DNA from: an uncultured Chloroflexus sp. | Lineage (GTDB): Bacteria; Chloroflexota; Chloroflexia; Chloroflexales; Chloroflexaceae | Direction: 5' to 3' | NCBI RefSeq assembly: GCF_937951745.1 | Contig: NZ_CALFBQ010000003.1 | Coordinates: forward strand, 62,001-126,000 | DNA length: 64,000 nt | Translations under genes and position numbers: made by a program | The notes under the pieces: generated by a model | Told to the model about the DNA's origin: nothing | What the model saw: the letters and a program-made list of their open reading frames with translations, nothing else | Databases searched by the model: none | In this document: positions 2,444 through 57,046 of the stretch, piece by piece | Layout: each line of letters begins with the position of its first letter | How positions within the stretch are numbered: position 1 is the first letter of the stretch

Positions 2444-3751
2444 ATGGCAATCCCTATCATTCGTGATCTTAATGCTGCCCGCGTTGGTATTTTGCGGCGG
2501 ACACCGCTTGACGATGATGCCGCAACGACCCGCACCGTCGCCGAGATTATTGCCGATGTGCGGCAACGGGGCGATAACGCGCTGCGCGAGTACAGCTTGC
2601 GTTTCGACGGCGTAGATCAGATGGCGATTGAGATACCGCGGGAGCGGTGGGCGGCAGCGGCTGCCGATCTTGATCCGGCGTTGCGCCGCGCGCTGTTGCT
2701 GGCGATTAGCGAAATTCGCCGCTTCCACGAGCGGCAACTCCGCAACTCATGGGTCGAATTTGGGGTCGAAGGAGCGCTGGGCCAGATTGTACGCCCACTT
2801 GACCGGGTTGGGATTTATGTGCCGGGAGGGGCGGCGCCGCTGCCGTCATCGCTGATCCACGCTGCGGTGCCAGCACGGGTAGCCGGTGTGCGTGAGATTG
2901 TGGTCTGTTCGCCGCCACAGCGGGCTACCGGTGAACCAGCCGCGATCGTGATGGCGGCGGCCCATCTAGCCGGTGTTGACCGGATGTTCGCAGTAGGCGG
3001 CGCGCAGGCAATAGCGGCGCTTGCCTACGGCACCGAGAGCATCCCGCGGGTTGATACGGTGGCCGGGCCGGGGAACCGGTACGTGATACACGCAATGCGG
3101 ATGGTGTATGGCACGGTGGGAGTGGTCAGCTTGCCGGGGCCGACCGAGACGCTGATTATCGCTGATCAGACGGCCAACCCGCGCGCCGTAGCCGCTGATT
3201 TATTGGCGCAGGCTGAGCATGTCGAAGCAAGCGCCATTTTGCTGACCACCGATCAGGTTTTGGCCGAACAGGTGCAGCACGAAGTCGAGCGGCAACTGGC
3301 GGCATTACCCGTCGCAAACGCCCGCGCGGCGCGCGAAGCGGTCACACAGCGTGGCGGGATTGTGCTGGTGCCCGATCTAGCAACGGCGTTTAGCTTGGCC
3401 AATGAGTATGGGCCAGAGCATCTCTGCCTACTGATTGCCGAGCCGTGGTCATATGTCGGCGAGGTACGCAATGCCGGCGGCATCTTTTTGGGTGAAGAGT
3501 CGTTTGAAGTGTTGGGCGACTATGTGGCGGGGCCGTCGCACATCATGCCCACCGAAGGCACGGCACGCTACGCATCGCCGGTCAACGTTGACAGTTTTCG
3601 CAAAGTCATCTCGCTCGTAGGGATGAATCGGGCCGGGTTAAGCCGGATCGGCCCGGCAGCGATGCGGCTAGCCGAAGCTGAAAGTTTGTTTGCCCACGCG
3701 GCAGCGGTGCGCGTCCGGCTTGAATCACTCGATACCGACGGGAGGGAGTAA
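2444..3751 (+). CDS. hisD: histidinol dehydrogenase
   Basis: The 435-residue product catalyses the last two oxidation steps of histidine synthesis, L-histidinol to L-histidine with 2 NAD+, in the cytoplasm with a bound zinc. Length matches the family (about 430). Family signatures seen are VAGPGNRYV (about 206-214), EYGPEHL (about 320-326, with the catalytic Glu-His) and HIMPTEGTARY (about 365-375). The ATG at 2444 is the only start that gives the normal N terminus MAIPIIRDL. No other his gene is in the window, so hisD is detached from the pathway genes. The YggT gene starts 1 base after its stop, which implies co-transcription. Confidence 0.97.
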   Translation: MAIPIIRDLNAARVGILRRTPLDDDAATTRTVAEIIADVRQRGDNALREYSLRFDGVDQMAIEIPRERWAAAAADLDPALRRALLLAISEIRRFHERQLRNSWVEFGVEGALGQIVRPLDRVGIYVPGGAAPLPSSLIHAAVPARVAGVREIVVCSPPQRATGEPAAIVMAAAHLAGVDRMFAVGGAQAIAALAYGTESIPRVDTVAGPGNRYVIHAMRMVYGTVGVVSLPGPTETLIIADQTANPRAVAADLLAQAEHVEASAILLTTDQVLAEQVQHEVERQLAALPVANARAAREAVTQRGGIVLVPDLATAFSLANEYGPEHLCLLIAEPWSYVGEVRNAGGIFLGEESFEVLGDYVAGPSHIMPTEGTARYASPVNVDSFRKVISLVGMNRAGLSRIGPAAMRLAEAESLFAHAAAVRVRLESLDTDGRE

Positions 3752-13218: not shown

Positions 13219-15078
13219 CTACTGAGCCCACAACGGCCAGCGGTCTTGGGCGGTGTTTTGGGTCACTTGTTGGGTAATGACTCCATCGCTGACGTTGAGG
13301 ATGTAAATCTCGAAGTCACCGTCACGATCGCTGGCAAAGGCCAACTGCCGGCCATCGGACGACCACGTGGGGGCGTCGTCAGTAGCGGGATGGTTGGTGA
13401 GGCGGCGGATATTGCTACCGTCGGCGTTCATCACGTAGATCTCCCAGTTGCCGTCACGGTCGCTGGCGAAGGCGATGCTCTTACCATCGGGCGAGGCGCG
13501 AGCGAAGCGGTCGTTGGCCGCGTTGTTGGTCAGGTTACGAATGTTCACTAGCTCCAGACCAGCATAGAGGGTGTCGATGTAATAGTAGCGAAGGTCAGCC
13601 CGATAGACCTCAAAATTGCCTTCGCAATTGGTGACCCAGAAGAGGTTACGACCATCAGGCGACCACGTTGGCGTTTCGACGTTGCATGCCTCGGCGTAGC
13701 TGGTGATCTGTTGCGCAAAGCCGCGCAGCGGGATATTCAAACGGCGCAGGTAAAGCTGGGGGTTGCCGTTTCGTTCCGAAACAAATGCCAGCAGATTACC
13801 ATCCGGTGAGACCATTGCGTTGTACTCGCTGCCGGGGATCAGAGAGAAGTCGTTATCTGGCGGCGGGAAGATACCATCGGTGTTGCTGTAGCTAATACGG
13901 ATCACACCGGCACCCGGTGCTGGCTCACCTGAGTCGGCAGCAATATTGTTGAGGGCGTAAATCTGGCGATAGGTCGGGCTATTGCGTCGTGAGTCAACGA
14001 TCAGGTACTGTTGTGCAGGGTCCCAACTGCGCCGCCACGAGAAGGCGACTGTCTCGCCGTTGTTGAAGGTGAGGCGTTGGCCGCCGCCGTTAAAGGTAGC
14101 CCGGTACAGTTCCCAATGGCTACCGGTATCAATATTCGAGGCGTAAATCAGTGGTGTCACTGGATCGGGTGTGACCCACGGCATGCCAAGGTGCGGGTAG
14201 CGCCATTGGAAGTAGTGTTGACCGACGTTGCCCATCTCGACCTGATAGCCAGCCGGATTATCGGGGGTGTAGGTCAGTACGCGCCGCTCGAAGAGTTGCA
14301 CCAATACGTCGCGTTCGGCATCGCCGATCACTGCCCGCACCCAGTAGGGATCGGTGATCGGATAGCCCATTGCGAACAGCCAATCTACGATCGGCGCCGT
14401 TACGATGCGGCCATTCTCCATTACCCGCCCACGTTGGTTCATGAAATCCCAGAAGATTTTTGGAATATTGTGGCCGGTAACGCTGTTGTATTGGACAATG
14501 GTGGTTTCGGGTTTGGCAAGGTCATCGCGCACACTGATATTGCCGCTGCGCGAGATAACAGTGTTCACCCGCTGATTGAGCCGAGCTGGATCGCGGTAGC
14601 CGTTGTCGATGGTGGCAATGCCGGCAAAGTCGCGATAGCCGGGGGCAACGGTATTGGCTGCCCGTGGATTGCCGGCGACCGGCACATCCGAGCCTTCGCG
14701 ATAACTGACATCGAAGGGATCATCGCCGAGTTGCATTCGTCCACTGATAAGCTCCTTTACGAGCAAGCCGTTGGTGACAATACCCTCAGCCGGATTGTTA
14801 ATCTCCATCCGTGCTTTGTCGAAATACTGCACGGTGCGCGCGCTATTGGGGCTTTGCCGGTAAAACTCACCGTAATCGAACCACGGCCCCGGCCCCCAAT
14901 ACCATGTGCGCCCGCCGCGCACCGCTTCGCCGTCGGTGCGGGTCCAGACAGATGCAAAGCGCGGGTCGGCAAAAGTGGTGCGACCGGAGAAAGGCGCTGC
15001 TATCAGCGGTGTCGCGCCGCTGATCATCAGCGCAACCATCAGGGTGATCGCACTCCAGAGGATACGCAGCCGGTTCAT
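13219..15078 (-). CDS. secreted propeller-repeat protein, copy 2
   Basis: A 619-residue paralogue of the adjacent 11181-13079 product with the same plan: signal peptide (about 1-27), the large N-terminal domain (GGRTWYWGPGPWF, VQYFDKARMEINNPAEG, GHNIPKIFWDFMNQRG, VGQHYFQWRYPHLGMPW), then PD40/TolB-like blades ending in an identical last 60 residues or so. The two copies differ most in the region just after the signal domain (about residues 125-190) and in the middle of the propeller. The start ATG follows AAGGAGG. Each copy has its own ribosome site and 3' hairpin, so separate expression is possible. Function is unknown. Confidence 0.85.
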   Translation of the reverse strand: MNRLRILWSAITLMVALMISGATPLIAAPFSGRTTFADPRFASVWTRTDGEAVRGGRTWYWGPGPWFDYGEFYRQSPNSARTVQYFDKARMEINNPAEGIVTNGLLVKELISGRMQLGDDPFDVSYREGSDVPVAGNPRAANTVAPGYRDFAGIATIDNGYRDPARLNQRVNTVISRSGNISVRDDLAKPETTIVQYNSVTGHNIPKIFWDFMNQRGRVMENGRIVTAPIVDWLFAMGYPITDPYWVRAVIGDAERDVLVQLFERRVLTYTPDNPAGYQVEMGNVGQHYFQWRYPHLGMPWVTPDPVTPLIYASNIDTGSHWELYRATFNGGGQRLTFNNGETVAFSWRRSWDPAQQYLIVDSRRNSPTYRQIYALNNIAADSGEPAPGAGVIRISYSNTDGIFPPPDNDFSLIPGSEYNAMVSPDGNLLAFVSERNGNPQLYLRRLNIPLRGFAQQITSYAEACNVETPTWSPDGRNLFWVTNCEGNFEVYRADLRYYYIDTLYAGLELVNIRNLTNNAANDRFARASPDGKSIAFASDRDGNWEIYVMNADGSNIRRLTNHPATDDAPTWSSDGRQLAFASDRDGDFEIYILNVSDGVITQQVTQNTAQDRWPLWAQ

Positions 15079-45104: not shown

Positions 45105-46085
45105 TCACGCCATTATCATCTCGCGTACTAGCCGCTGACACTCAACCGGATGCTCAATTGGTGGTAAATGACCACAAGCAGGGATCAATTCCACTTTTGC
45201 CGATTCGATAAATCCTGCTGCTGCCTGCACATCGGCAGGACGGATGATCCGGTCGTCTTGTCCGCTGATGAGCAACGTAGGGGCTTTGATCGCCTGCAAC
45301 CGGCGCTTCAGTGTCGGATCGGCAGGCATTGTCTGCATTGTAACGTACATTCGGCTATCAGCACGCGCATGGTCGGACAGATACGCATCCCAGCATGCCG
45401 GATCAGCCGGTGGCCCGGCCAGCAGCCACGCCGCCATCAACTGATTGGTTAATGGAGTCCCGACTGCCCAGCCCGTCCACGTATTGATCAGGGGACGAGC
45501 AAGGCCGAGGAAGACATCGAATGGGGTGCGAGTGAGGGCGAGAGTGAGCGCATCAGGGGTACTAGGCCGTACACCAAAGCTGACGAGAATCAGTTGACTT
45601 ACCCGTGCCGGATGAGTTGCTGCGACTATCGCTGCCACACCGGCACCCAGTGCGTGACCAAGCAGATCAAATCGACGCAGTCCTAGTGCATTGGCGAACG
45701 CAATGATCTCATCGGCCAGCATCGCTAACGTTGGAGCGCTACTCCGCGCCGGTGACTCACCGCAACCGGGCAGATCGATAGCGTAGCCGGTACGGATGTC
45801 TGCCAGACCGTTCAACACATCACGCCACAAATGACCGGATGCGCCAACGCCATGCACTGCTATCAATGGTGGCCCTTCACCGATACGGCGATAACGCAAT
45901 GGGCCATTCACGGTACGCACCGTTGCTATTTGCATGGTGGTTGCTGCTGTTGAGAGCCGTAGCCCGTGTCCGCGCACAATCGTATCACGTTCCGGCAGAG
46001 GAGACTCAGCAGCTTGATCGGCAGAGGACACCGAGATGCGCAATCCGCGTCCACGCCGGATCGATTCGTTTGTTTCATCGGCCAT
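45105..46085 (-). CDS. alpha/beta-hydrolase-fold protein with altered nucleophile
   Basis: A 326-residue protein. The fold core covers about 55-325 with the oxyanion motif HGVGASGHLWRDV, acid segment SGQDDRIIRP and His in CGHLPPIEHP. The nucleophile elbow reads LGHALGAG: the Ser of GHSLG is replaced by Ala145 (codon GCA), so normal esterase chemistry is lost. The N-terminal 50 residues are extra and hold two copies of RGxGLR[IL]S (11-18 and 38-45). ATG 46085 has GAGGAA and overlaps the ParA stop by 11 bases, so the two are translationally coupled. A binding or scaffold role is inference. Confidence 0.82.
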   Translation of the reverse strand: MADETNESIRRGRGLRISVSSADQAAESPLPERDTIVRGHGLRLSTAATTMQIATVRTVNGPLRYRRIGEGPPLIAVHGVGASGHLWRDVLNGLADIRTGYAIDLPGCGESPARSSAPTLAMLADEIIAFANALGLRRFDLLGHALGAGVAAIVAATHPARVSQLILVSFGVRPSTPDALTLALTRTPFDVFLGLARPLINTWTGWAVGTPLTNQLMAAWLLAGPPADPACWDAYLSDHARADSRMYVTMQTMPADPTLKRRLQAIKAPTLLISGQDDRIIRPADVQAAAGFIESAKVELIPACGHLPPIEHPVECQRLVREMIMA

Positions 46086-46839
46086 ACTGTTCCTCCAATT
46101 CGGTTGCCAAGGCGGCATACGCCTGCGCGCCAGCGCTCTGTGGGGCAAAGGTCGCAATCGACGCGCCGGCTGCCGGCGCTTCAGCCAACCGGATGTTGAA
46201 AGGAATGACCGTCTTGAAGACCAGATCGCCGTATTGTGCCCGCACTTGCTGCTCGATCTGCTGGCTCAAGTTGGTGCGCCGGTCAGCCATTGTACAGACA
46301 ATCCCGCCGATCCGTAACGGCGGATTAATCTCGCGCACCAACGCGATCGTCGCTTCAAGCGGCGGTAGGGCGCGCAAGGCGTAAGCGTGCAGTTGCAGCG
46401 GCACCAGCACCATCTCGGCGGCGGCCAGCGCATTGAGCGCAAACAAGCCGAGGCTCGGCGGCGGATCGAGCAGAATGTAGTCGTACTGACTCTGGGCGGC
46501 GCGCAAGGCCTTGCGCAAGAGCAATTCGCGCCCTACCCTCCCGGCCAATTCGAGTTCGGCTCCGGCGAGATCGAGCGAGGCTGGAATGAGATCCAACCCG
46601 TCGCTGAGGGTGCGAGTAGCGAAAGCGCTCCCGTGTTCAGGGTTGAGCAAGACTTCGTAGACGCTGTATTCCAACCCCGCCGGGTCAACTCCAAGCCCTT
46701 GCGTCAGGTTAGCCTGCGGGTCGAGATCAACCAGCAGCACCCGTCGCCCGCGCGCCGCCAACATGACCCCTAGATTCAGCGCCGTCGTCGCCTTGCCGAC
46801 GCCGCCTTTTTGCATTGCCAACGCGATCGTGCGCGCCAT
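46075..46839 (-). CDS. ParA-family ATPase with altered Walker A
   Basis: A 254-residue ParA/Soj-type protein, which usually positions DNA or protein cargo. The P-loop at residues 11-18 reads KGGVGKAT: Lys11 and Lys16 are present, but the Mg-binding Thr17 is Ala (codon GCG). Switch I LVDLDPQANLTQGLG and the ILLDPPPSLG motif are normal. No parB or parS is visible. Start ATG 46839 gives the usual N terminus MARTIALAMQ; an in-frame start at 47004 would add 55 unusual residues. Its stop overlaps the hydrolase-like gene. The pairing suggests a shared job not related to chromosome segregation. Confidence 0.87.
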   Translation of the reverse strand: MARTIALAMQKGGVGKATTALNLGVMLAARGRRVLLVDLDPQANLTQGLGVDPAGLEYSVYEVLLNPEHGSAFATRTLSDGLDLIPASLDLAGAELELAGRVGRELLLRKALRAAQSQYDYILLDPPPSLGLFALNALAAAEMVLVPLQLHAYALRALPPLEATIALVREINPPLRIGGIVCTMADRRTNLSQQIEQQVRAQYGDLVFKTVIPFNIRLAEAPAAGASIATFAPQSAGAQAYAALATELEEQYGR

Positions 46840-55369: not shown

Positions 55370-57046
55370 ATGACGCAGGCGATAAACCCTTCAACGTATC
55401 AGCTATTGCGCCGGCAGTTGCGCCCGCTGAGCATCAAACTGCGCCTGAGCGATGGCATTGTACTGGCAAGCCGCACCCTATGGATGGCGCTAACCGGTAG
55501 CGCACTGGTGGCTGCCATCGGCTGGATGACGCCGGTGCCTCATTTGCTATGGTGGGTGTTGGTACCGATCGCGTTGTGGTTTGTAGCCATCGTCGGCGTC
55601 AGCGCATTCCGGCCACTACCGCCGCGCCGGGCTGCACAGCGGGTTGACCGCATCCTCAACCTGCGCGAACGGCTCTCGACGGCGATTGAATTGTATGAGA
55701 CCGGCGCGGATACGCCGCTCGCTCCTTACCAACAGGCTGACGCGAGCGCGCTAGCGTTGCAGCTCCATCCGCGCCAGATCCCGATCGTGGTGCCGCGCCA
55801 GCCATTGCTATTGGCGCTGCTGCCGGCGCTGGTGACGGTTGCGTTACTGACGCTGCCCAACCCGATGAACCAGATCTTGGCCGAGCGCGCCGCGGTCGCC
55901 GAGATGATCGAACAGGTCAATCAGCAATTGGCGGAATTAGAACAAGAGTTGGCCGCGCGTGATGATCTCACGCCCGAACAACGGGCGGAATTAGAGGCGA
56001 TCCTGCGCCAATTGCAAGCTGAATTAGCCCGCAACCCCGGTGATCGCCAAGAGGCGCTGGCCGATCTAGCGCAGGCCGAAATGCGCCTGCGCCAACAGCT
56101 TAATCCGCAAACCGACGTGCGCCAAGCGGCGCTGGAACAGTTGGCGCGCCGATTGGAACAGCTCTCTAATAACCCGACTTCGCCCCGCCCAACGCTTGAC
56201 CAGTTGCGTCAACAACTTGAGAACTTGGCGGCCAGCCTCGATCAGATGAGCGCCGCAGAGCGTGAGGCGTTAGCCCAAGAACTGGCTCAACAGGCTGCGC
56301 AACTCGCGTCGGCGGATCGCGCCACCGCGCAGGCTTTGCAAGATGCAGCACAAGCCCTCGAACGCGGCGACACCCAAGCGGCTGCCGAGGCATTGCAACA
56401 GGCTGGCCAACAGGTGCAGAATGCCCAAGCAGCTATTGCTAACCAGCGCGCAGTGCAACAGGCGCTGAACAATACCCAAGCGGCTCGCCAACAAATTGCG
56501 CAGGCCGGCCAACCCGGCCAAGGCCAGCAGGCCCAGCAGGGGCAAGGACAGGCTCAACAAGGCCAAGGGCAAGGCCAGCAAGGACAGGGGCAGGCTCAAC
56601 AAGGCCAAGGGCAAGGCCAGCAAGGGCAACAAGGGCAACAAGGCCAACCCGGGCAAAGCCAGCAAGGCCAACCCGGGCAAGGCGGTGGCTCGACTGCTGA
56701 CAATCTCGGCCAACAACAGAGTAATGCGCCGGGCAATGTCGATCCGAATCGGCCAAGTTCGCAACAGGGGCAAGGGCGCAACGATGGATTGGTGTACCAA
56801 CCCTTCCGGCCCTCCGGCCAAACCGGTGATCCTGATTTTATCGCCGGCCAGCAGGGCAGCAGCGGCAGCAGCGAGGTGCGTCCGGGTCAAGGGCAGCAGG
56901 GTGGGTTGAATAATCCGTCGGTCATTCCTTACGAGCAGGTGTTTCCTGAATACCAGCGCACGGCGACGGAAGCGATCGATCGCGGCAGCGTACCGATTTA
57001 CTTACAAAATCTCGTCCGCGAATACTTCTCGCGGCTAGAACCGTAG
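55370..57046 (+). CDS. coiled-coil membrane protein with Gln/Gly repeat tract, MoxR-operon head
   Basis: A 558-residue protein. Two to three membrane helices lie in residues 28-80 and about 145-165. A long Gln/Ala/Leu-rich coiled coil covers about 185-380 (QVNQQLAELEQELAARDDL, read in part). A low-complexity tract at about 380-445 repeats GQGQQ and QQGQ. The last 100 residues end AIDRGSVPIYLQNLVREYF-SRLEP, an ending I know from membrane proteins next to MoxR/BatA genes. ATG 55370 is the start. It lies 80 bases before moxR and likely forms part of the same complex; the function is unknown. Confidence 0.72.
   Translation: MTQAINPSTYQLLRRQLRPLSIKLRLSDGIVLASRTLWMALTGSALVAAIGWMTPVPHLLWWVLVPIALWFVAIVGVSAFRPLPPRRAAQRVDRILNLRERLSTAIELYETGADTPLAPYQQADASALALQLHPRQIPIVVPRQPLLLALLPALVTVALLTLPNPMNQILAERAAVAEMIEQVNQQLAELEQELAARDDLTPEQRAELEAILRQLQAELARNPGDRQEALADLAQAEMRLRQQLNPQTDVRQAALEQLARRLEQLSNNPTSPRPTLDQLRQQLENLAASLDQMSAAEREALAQELAQQAAQLASADRATAQALQDAAQALERGDTQAAAEALQQAGQQVQNAQAAIANQRAVQQALNNTQAARQQIAQAGQPGQGQQAQQGQGQAQQGQGQGQQGQGQAQQGQGQGQQGQQGQQGQPGQSQQGQPGQGGGSTADNLGQQQSNAPGNVDPNRPSSQQGQGRNDGLVYQPFRPSGQTGDPDFIAGQQGSSGSSEVRPGQGQQGGLNNPSVIPYEQVFPEYQRTATEAIDRGSVPIYLQNLVREYFSRLEP
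56549..56632 (+). repeat. 42-base tandem repeat coding for the Gln/Gly tract
   Basis: Two copies of a 42-base unit (56549-56590 and 56591-56632) share their first 34-35 bases, and weaker copies flank them. The unit length is a multiple of three, so expansion or loss keeps the frame. It encodes QAQQGQGQGQQGQG-type units. Confidence 0.7.

Follow-up and report, generated by a model that had tools for sequence, protein, structure and literature searches.

In this work we analysed a window of 64,000 nucleotides of a Chloroflexus genome assembled in 94 contigs (G000), which carries two overlapping genes on its (-) strand. The sequence, Pfam and an ortholog alignment identify the upstream gene (46078..46839) as encoding a ParA-type ATPase of 254 amino acids, and sequence and Pfam identify the downstream gene (45105..46085) as encoding a 326-amino-acid protein with an alpha/beta-hydrolase fold and a disordered N-terminus. 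Both reading frames are intact. As an earlier note on this DNA had described, the ATG of the hydrolase gene lies within parA, the overlap being 11 bases including the stop codon; it is preceded by GGAGG at a spacing that is conserved in orthologous loci, and with this arrangement the two genes are translationally coupled. ParA matches AAA_31/ParA in Pfam (4e-51) and its partner matches Abhydrolase_1 (2e-27), with no ParB/Srx domain beside parA, and among the matches listed no NCBIfam model is above its cut-off for the pair. There is no ParB at the pair locus. A normal parA-parB pair is present elsewhere in the genome (locus L084), and ParB_N is found in G000 only at C47 and C26. The C26 protein (14670-14879, L085) is a further ParB_N protein; no ParA lies beside it in the stretch examined. 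Elsewhere in the window, positions 56516-56671 hold a tandem repeat array of 42-bp and 9-bp units (CAAGGCCAG).

Two residue changes with different histories

The earlier note reported KGGVGKAT in ParA (Thr17 to Ala, GCG) and GHALG in the hydrolase-fold protein (Ser145 to Ala, GCA), and both are directly visible in the sequence; what it made of them has to be separated for the two proteins. The window ParA has the homology and the Lys and Asp residues of ParA/MinD (deviant Walker A) ATPases: it matches the solved structure 8ray (4e-62), and the signature lysine K11, the P-loop K16, the Walker A' D40 and the Walker B D125 are present and invariant in the ortholog alignment. R217 is, by the alignment to 8ray, the counterpart of the DNA-binding R238, and is Arg or Lys across the family. 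The Walker A motif departs from KGGxxK[S/T] at Ala17 (codon 46789..46791, (-)), a codon that is ACG or ACA (Thr) in other Chloroflexus species. The 15 aligned ParA orthologs all fit this pattern and all read KGGVGKTT, so that Ala17 recurs in none; one more distant relative has KGGVAKTT. In the nearest relative, Chloroflexus islandicus, ParA is 98% identical and has Thr17, and the change from ACG to GCG is one of five differences. The dN/dS of ParA is 0.03, and there is no nonsynonymous excess on the window branch (p = 1). On this comparison T17A is a recent one-base event in a single genome, or a sequencing or assembly error, and because all 15 aligned orthologs have KGGVGKTT it is a private change or an error rather than a feature of the system. 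The ParA family looks like an active ATPase; the window protein is a member by descent whose own activity is doubtful, as T17A is likely to impair the binding or hydrolysis of Mg-ATP in G000. The proposal of a ParA pseudoenzyme, for which the earlier note had itself named close relatives with an intact GKT as contrary evidence, is thus rejected, and with T17A confined to one genome, the pairing of two pseudoenzyme changes does not characterise the system.

The change in the hydrolase-fold protein affects a whole lineage. From the ortholog alignment, codon 145 (45651..45653, (-)) occupies the nucleophile position, and the acid D278 (45252..45254, (-)) and the histidine H306 of CGHLP (45168..45170, (-)) are retained, in agreement with the earlier note; the window protein thus has the fold, acid and His of a serine hydrolase and lacks its nucleophile. 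Comparison of the Ser145 column, put forward in that note as a check, bears out the substitution: the nucleophile is Ala or Gly in 13 of 26 ParA-linked orthologs and Ser in all 24 controls (20 unlinked paralogs from the same genomes and 4 outgroup rows), a difference with a Fisher p of 4e-5 when phylogeny is ignored. The four Chloroflexus species that bear the pair have A, A, A and G, and none has Ser; Gly is also found in genera g11 and g18 and Ala in G032 and G003, while Ser is retained in g4, g5, G001, G030 and Roseiflexaceae, Ser and Ala being found within one genus (G001 versus G003). The G030 ortholog (L019) reads GLSLG, with the Ser kept and the elbow His lost. A tree on 283 columns, the nucleophile column among them, requires at least four changes between Ser and not-Ser, and with Ser in the outgroup and in Roseiflexaceae, loss is the most parsimonious direction. 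The orthologs checked, including those without Ser, all keep Asp and His, and the hydrolase domain has a dN/dS of about 0.08-0.09 against the window species, so that it is not decaying. From these alignments the Ser-to-Ala change is real and lineage-wide, and the pseudoenzyme reading applies to the window lineage without extending to the whole family; the retained Asp and His could allow a non-hydrolytic activity in Ser-less members. The suggestion of binding or positioning in place of catalysis is therefore supported for the hydrolase partner, in which Ser was lost repeatedly under purifying selection on the fold and with invariant N-terminal peptides (see below), and finds no support for ParA, whose orthologs are intact.

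An N-terminal tandem motif and its putative counterpart on ParA

Every N-terminally complete linked hydrolase carries two, sometimes three, copies of IRRG(R/K/Q)GLRLS in a disordered tail, with an acidic or proline-rich linker. In the window protein the first ParA-activator-like motif is IRRGRGLRISV (residues 9-19; 46029..46061, (-)) and the second is VRGHGLRLST (residues 37-46; 45948..45977, (-)). Among 20 aligned orthologs R10, R11 and G12 of the first and R38, G41 and L44 of the second are invariant, in the very sequences whose catalytic Ser varies. The linker drifts fast (dN/dS 0.3-0.7 against the window species) with the motifs unchanged, and the motif is retained at just 35-48% identity of the hydrolase domain and is missing from unlinked paralogs. 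An AlphaFold model built from two sequences has a pLDDT of 37, too low to serve a fold search, and only agrees with disorder of residues 1-51. A motif profile gave 29 matches at E < 2e-5 in 158 genomes, of which 27 are hydrolase-type N-termini, two of them truncated at contig ends, and the remaining 2 belong to partners of sister ParAs. No other convincing occurrence of a degenerate motif pattern was found across G000, and a phylum scan of 400 genomes gave no convincing new member outside the order. One profile match from another class (G287) was rejected as a chance match, as the frame lies beside and across unrelated genes and no ParA was seen.

The sister ParAs (55-74% identity, on other contigs) point to what this motif may do. 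Their partners are unrelated to the hydrolase, being small proteins whose ribbon-helix-helix matches are weak and all fall short of the Pfam cut-offs, and members of a DUF3102-like family, and the sole feature that these partners share is a short N-terminal motif (KPVIRRGQGVRLSTEE, KPPIRRGQGIRLSTDT, EIVRGKGYQLSTD, PIQKGAPFQVSTA, VIQRGQGLDGLITS). The chromosomal ParB of G000 begins with SRKRGLGSGLDALIPS. In Myxococcus xanthus an N-terminal motif of ParB activates ParA, its central Arg lying near ParA Y81, E82, D110 and E117, and ParB R13 is received by Y81, E82 and E117 (PMC12462528); ParA activators have a modular build that includes a short N-terminus of positive charge (PMC7993993). The tail of the hydrolase-fold protein, a short basic motif repeated in tandem (IRRGxGLRLS) with invariant Arg in a disordered region, resembles the ParA-activating motif of ParB, a likeness seen by inspection and through the sister partners, with no significant profile comparison. 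On the ParA side, aligning the protein to 8ray (with a numbering offset of 19 fixed on D58 of Motif 2) places the pocket for the ParB arginine at Y61, E62, D90 and E97; Y61, E62 and E97 are invariant in the orthologs and the fourth site, D90, varies, so that three of the four residues of a receiving pocket are conserved. In the ParA tree the hydrolase-linked ParAs group together as one clade, with weak support (69/53), beside those with other partner types. Taken together, several independent sequence arguments support the identity of the partner: by its position and its motif the hydrolase-fold protein is in the ParB/adaptor slot, the clade relatives of its ParA being paired with small partition-type adaptors. 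The remark that ParB is missing is thus true of the locus, and overlooks that the hydrolase-fold protein itself fills this slot.

The DUF3102-like proteins (IGARRRSGEALLEAARWLSEAR) accompany the sister ParAs at L066, L068, L069, L071, L072, L075, L076, L082 and L083 and their relatives; their N-termini often carry one or two (I/L)QKGxPFxVST motifs, and they probably represent another type of partner for this ParA clade. The G033 partner (L080:2812-3250), which has a weak ribbon-helix-helix match, holds about six copies of the 8-residue repeat DRTIAETQ between its ParA motif and its C-terminal part.

Distribution and surroundings of the pair

The genome search suggested in the earlier note finds the same gene pair across Chloroflexaceae and Roseiflexaceae, and in the linked loci examined the two adjacent genes overlap or are separated by a short gap; the pair is absent from four other Chloroflexus genomes. 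In 20 loci compared with their flanks, conservation is confined to the pair, and no conserved gene outside it, metabolic or otherwise, gives a clue to a cargo. Around the window pair no 14-mer is present at three or more copies, so the centromere-like repeats of ParABS are missing there; such repeats were seen at 6 of the 18 loci that have other partners, against 1 of 12 other hydrolase-linked loci. In C. islandicus (L003, near base 3033 of the scanned region) a 14-mer, GGAGCCGCACGGCC, occurs in four copies near a contig end beside parA; the other hydrolase-linked loci checked lack it. When ParA was searched against plasmids, the matches listed were all generic ParAs. Because only the pair is conserved, and because repeats are missing at the window and at nearly all hydrolase-linked loci, the system appears self-contained and probably does not serve DNA. 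A photosynthetic reaction centre is encoded in 25 of 26 pair-bearing genomes tested at the family cut-off; a functional link with phototrophy was dropped, as it is confounded by lineage and four Chloroflexus with a reaction centre lack the pair.

A hydrolase fold as a probable ParA partner

We consider it probable that the pair forms a self-contained two-gene ParA system in which the alpha/beta-hydrolase-fold protein acts as activator and adaptor. In this model the nucleoid would be covered by ParA dimers with bound ATP; each dimer would offer its two sites to the tandem peptides, whose docking would set off ATP hydrolysis and so drive a ratchet that spreads the hydrolase-fold protein together with whatever its pocket or surface binds. 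Both ATPase stimulation and nucleoid positioning by the partner are inferred. The fold would serve mainly as a ligand- or cargo-binding module, since Ser was lost several times while Asp, His and the fold were kept, and the protein is probably a positioning adaptor and not an ordinary enzyme.

The same residues leave room for another reading, in which the hydrolase-fold protein has stayed an enzyme, needs only its His-Asp pair and is positioned or regulated by ParA. Some lyases and cofactor-free oxygenases of the alpha/beta-hydrolase fold use chemistry that needs only His and Asp. The retention of D278 and H306 with or without Ser, the presence of Ser in half of the orthologs and the purifying selection on the domain are all in its favour, and known lyases of this fold (PMC3444685) provide a precedent. 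However, Ala and Gly both occur at the nucleophile position and one genus contains both Ser and Ala, which looks like relaxed constraint and not a new mechanism, and no metabolic neighbour is conserved; we hold this reading to be unlikely, though worth keeping in mind. A DNA partition or maintenance system, with the hydrolase-fold protein as centromere-binding protein, deserves much less credit. It would agree with a ParA clade shared with likely small DNA-binding adaptors, several of them flanked by repeats, but this partner has no DNA-binding domain, 11 of the 12 other loci resemble the window in having no repeat array near the pair, and locus contexts differ. It is slightly less probable still that both residue changes reflect degeneration of the pair in the window lineage: the restriction of T17A to G000 and the four Chloroflexus genomes without the pair speak for such decay, against which stand the intact reading frames, the low dN/dS of ParA with no excess on the window branch, and a hydrolase domain that remains constrained despite the missing Ser in all four pair-bearing Chloroflexus species.

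The origin of such a system may be sketched, with about even chances of being correct, as the passage of a plasmid-type partition module to the positioning of protein or metabolite bodies: the DNA-binding domain of the adaptor would have been swapped for a hydrolase fold, catalysis would then have been lost several times independently, and the tandem ParA-activating peptides would have been kept, leaving a pseudoenzyme as a ParA cargo adaptor.

Many ATPases of the ParA family are termed orphans, as no partner has been recognised for them (PMC10241942). In the present case a single short N-terminal motif, common to the unrelated adaptors of sister ParAs, allows the partner to be named from sequence, and this shared-motif approach is a route to the partners of other orphan ParAs. 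In the open literature searched, we found no description of a hydrolase-fold protein as partner of a ParA. The pair offers a tractable example of an enzyme fold that seems to have been recruited as an adaptor, its catalytic residue having been lost repeatedly, and makes the search for cargo in phototrophic Chloroflexales a defined experiment.

Compared with ParABS, the system likewise has a small ParA whose catalytic and DNA-binding residues are conserved, and a partner with a disordered N-terminus bearing a basic and aliphatic ParA-binding motif (PMC12462528); it differs in that an alpha/beta-hydrolase fold stands in place of the ParB/Srx CTPase domain, in having two motif copies in tandem, and in having no parS-like repeats. 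It resembles plasmid ParAs with small adaptors (type Ib, ParF-ParG-like) in that sister ParAs of 69-74% identity are paired with small adaptors carrying the same motif, IRRGQG(I/V)RLST, but here the hydrolase fold replaces the DNA-binding domain. With the orphan positioning systems McdAB, PpfA-TlpT and PomXYZ it shares a ParA-family ATPase with a non-ParB partner and a modular activator with a charged N-terminal peptide, although no known cargo gene lies beside the window pair. Finally, the partner has the fold, the Asp, the His and the elbow position of the alpha/beta-hydrolase superfamily (BphD/PcaD/esterase-like; best solved match 6i8w), and is set apart from it by the Ala or Gly that half of the orthologs have in place of Ser and by the added tail, which resembles a ParA activator.
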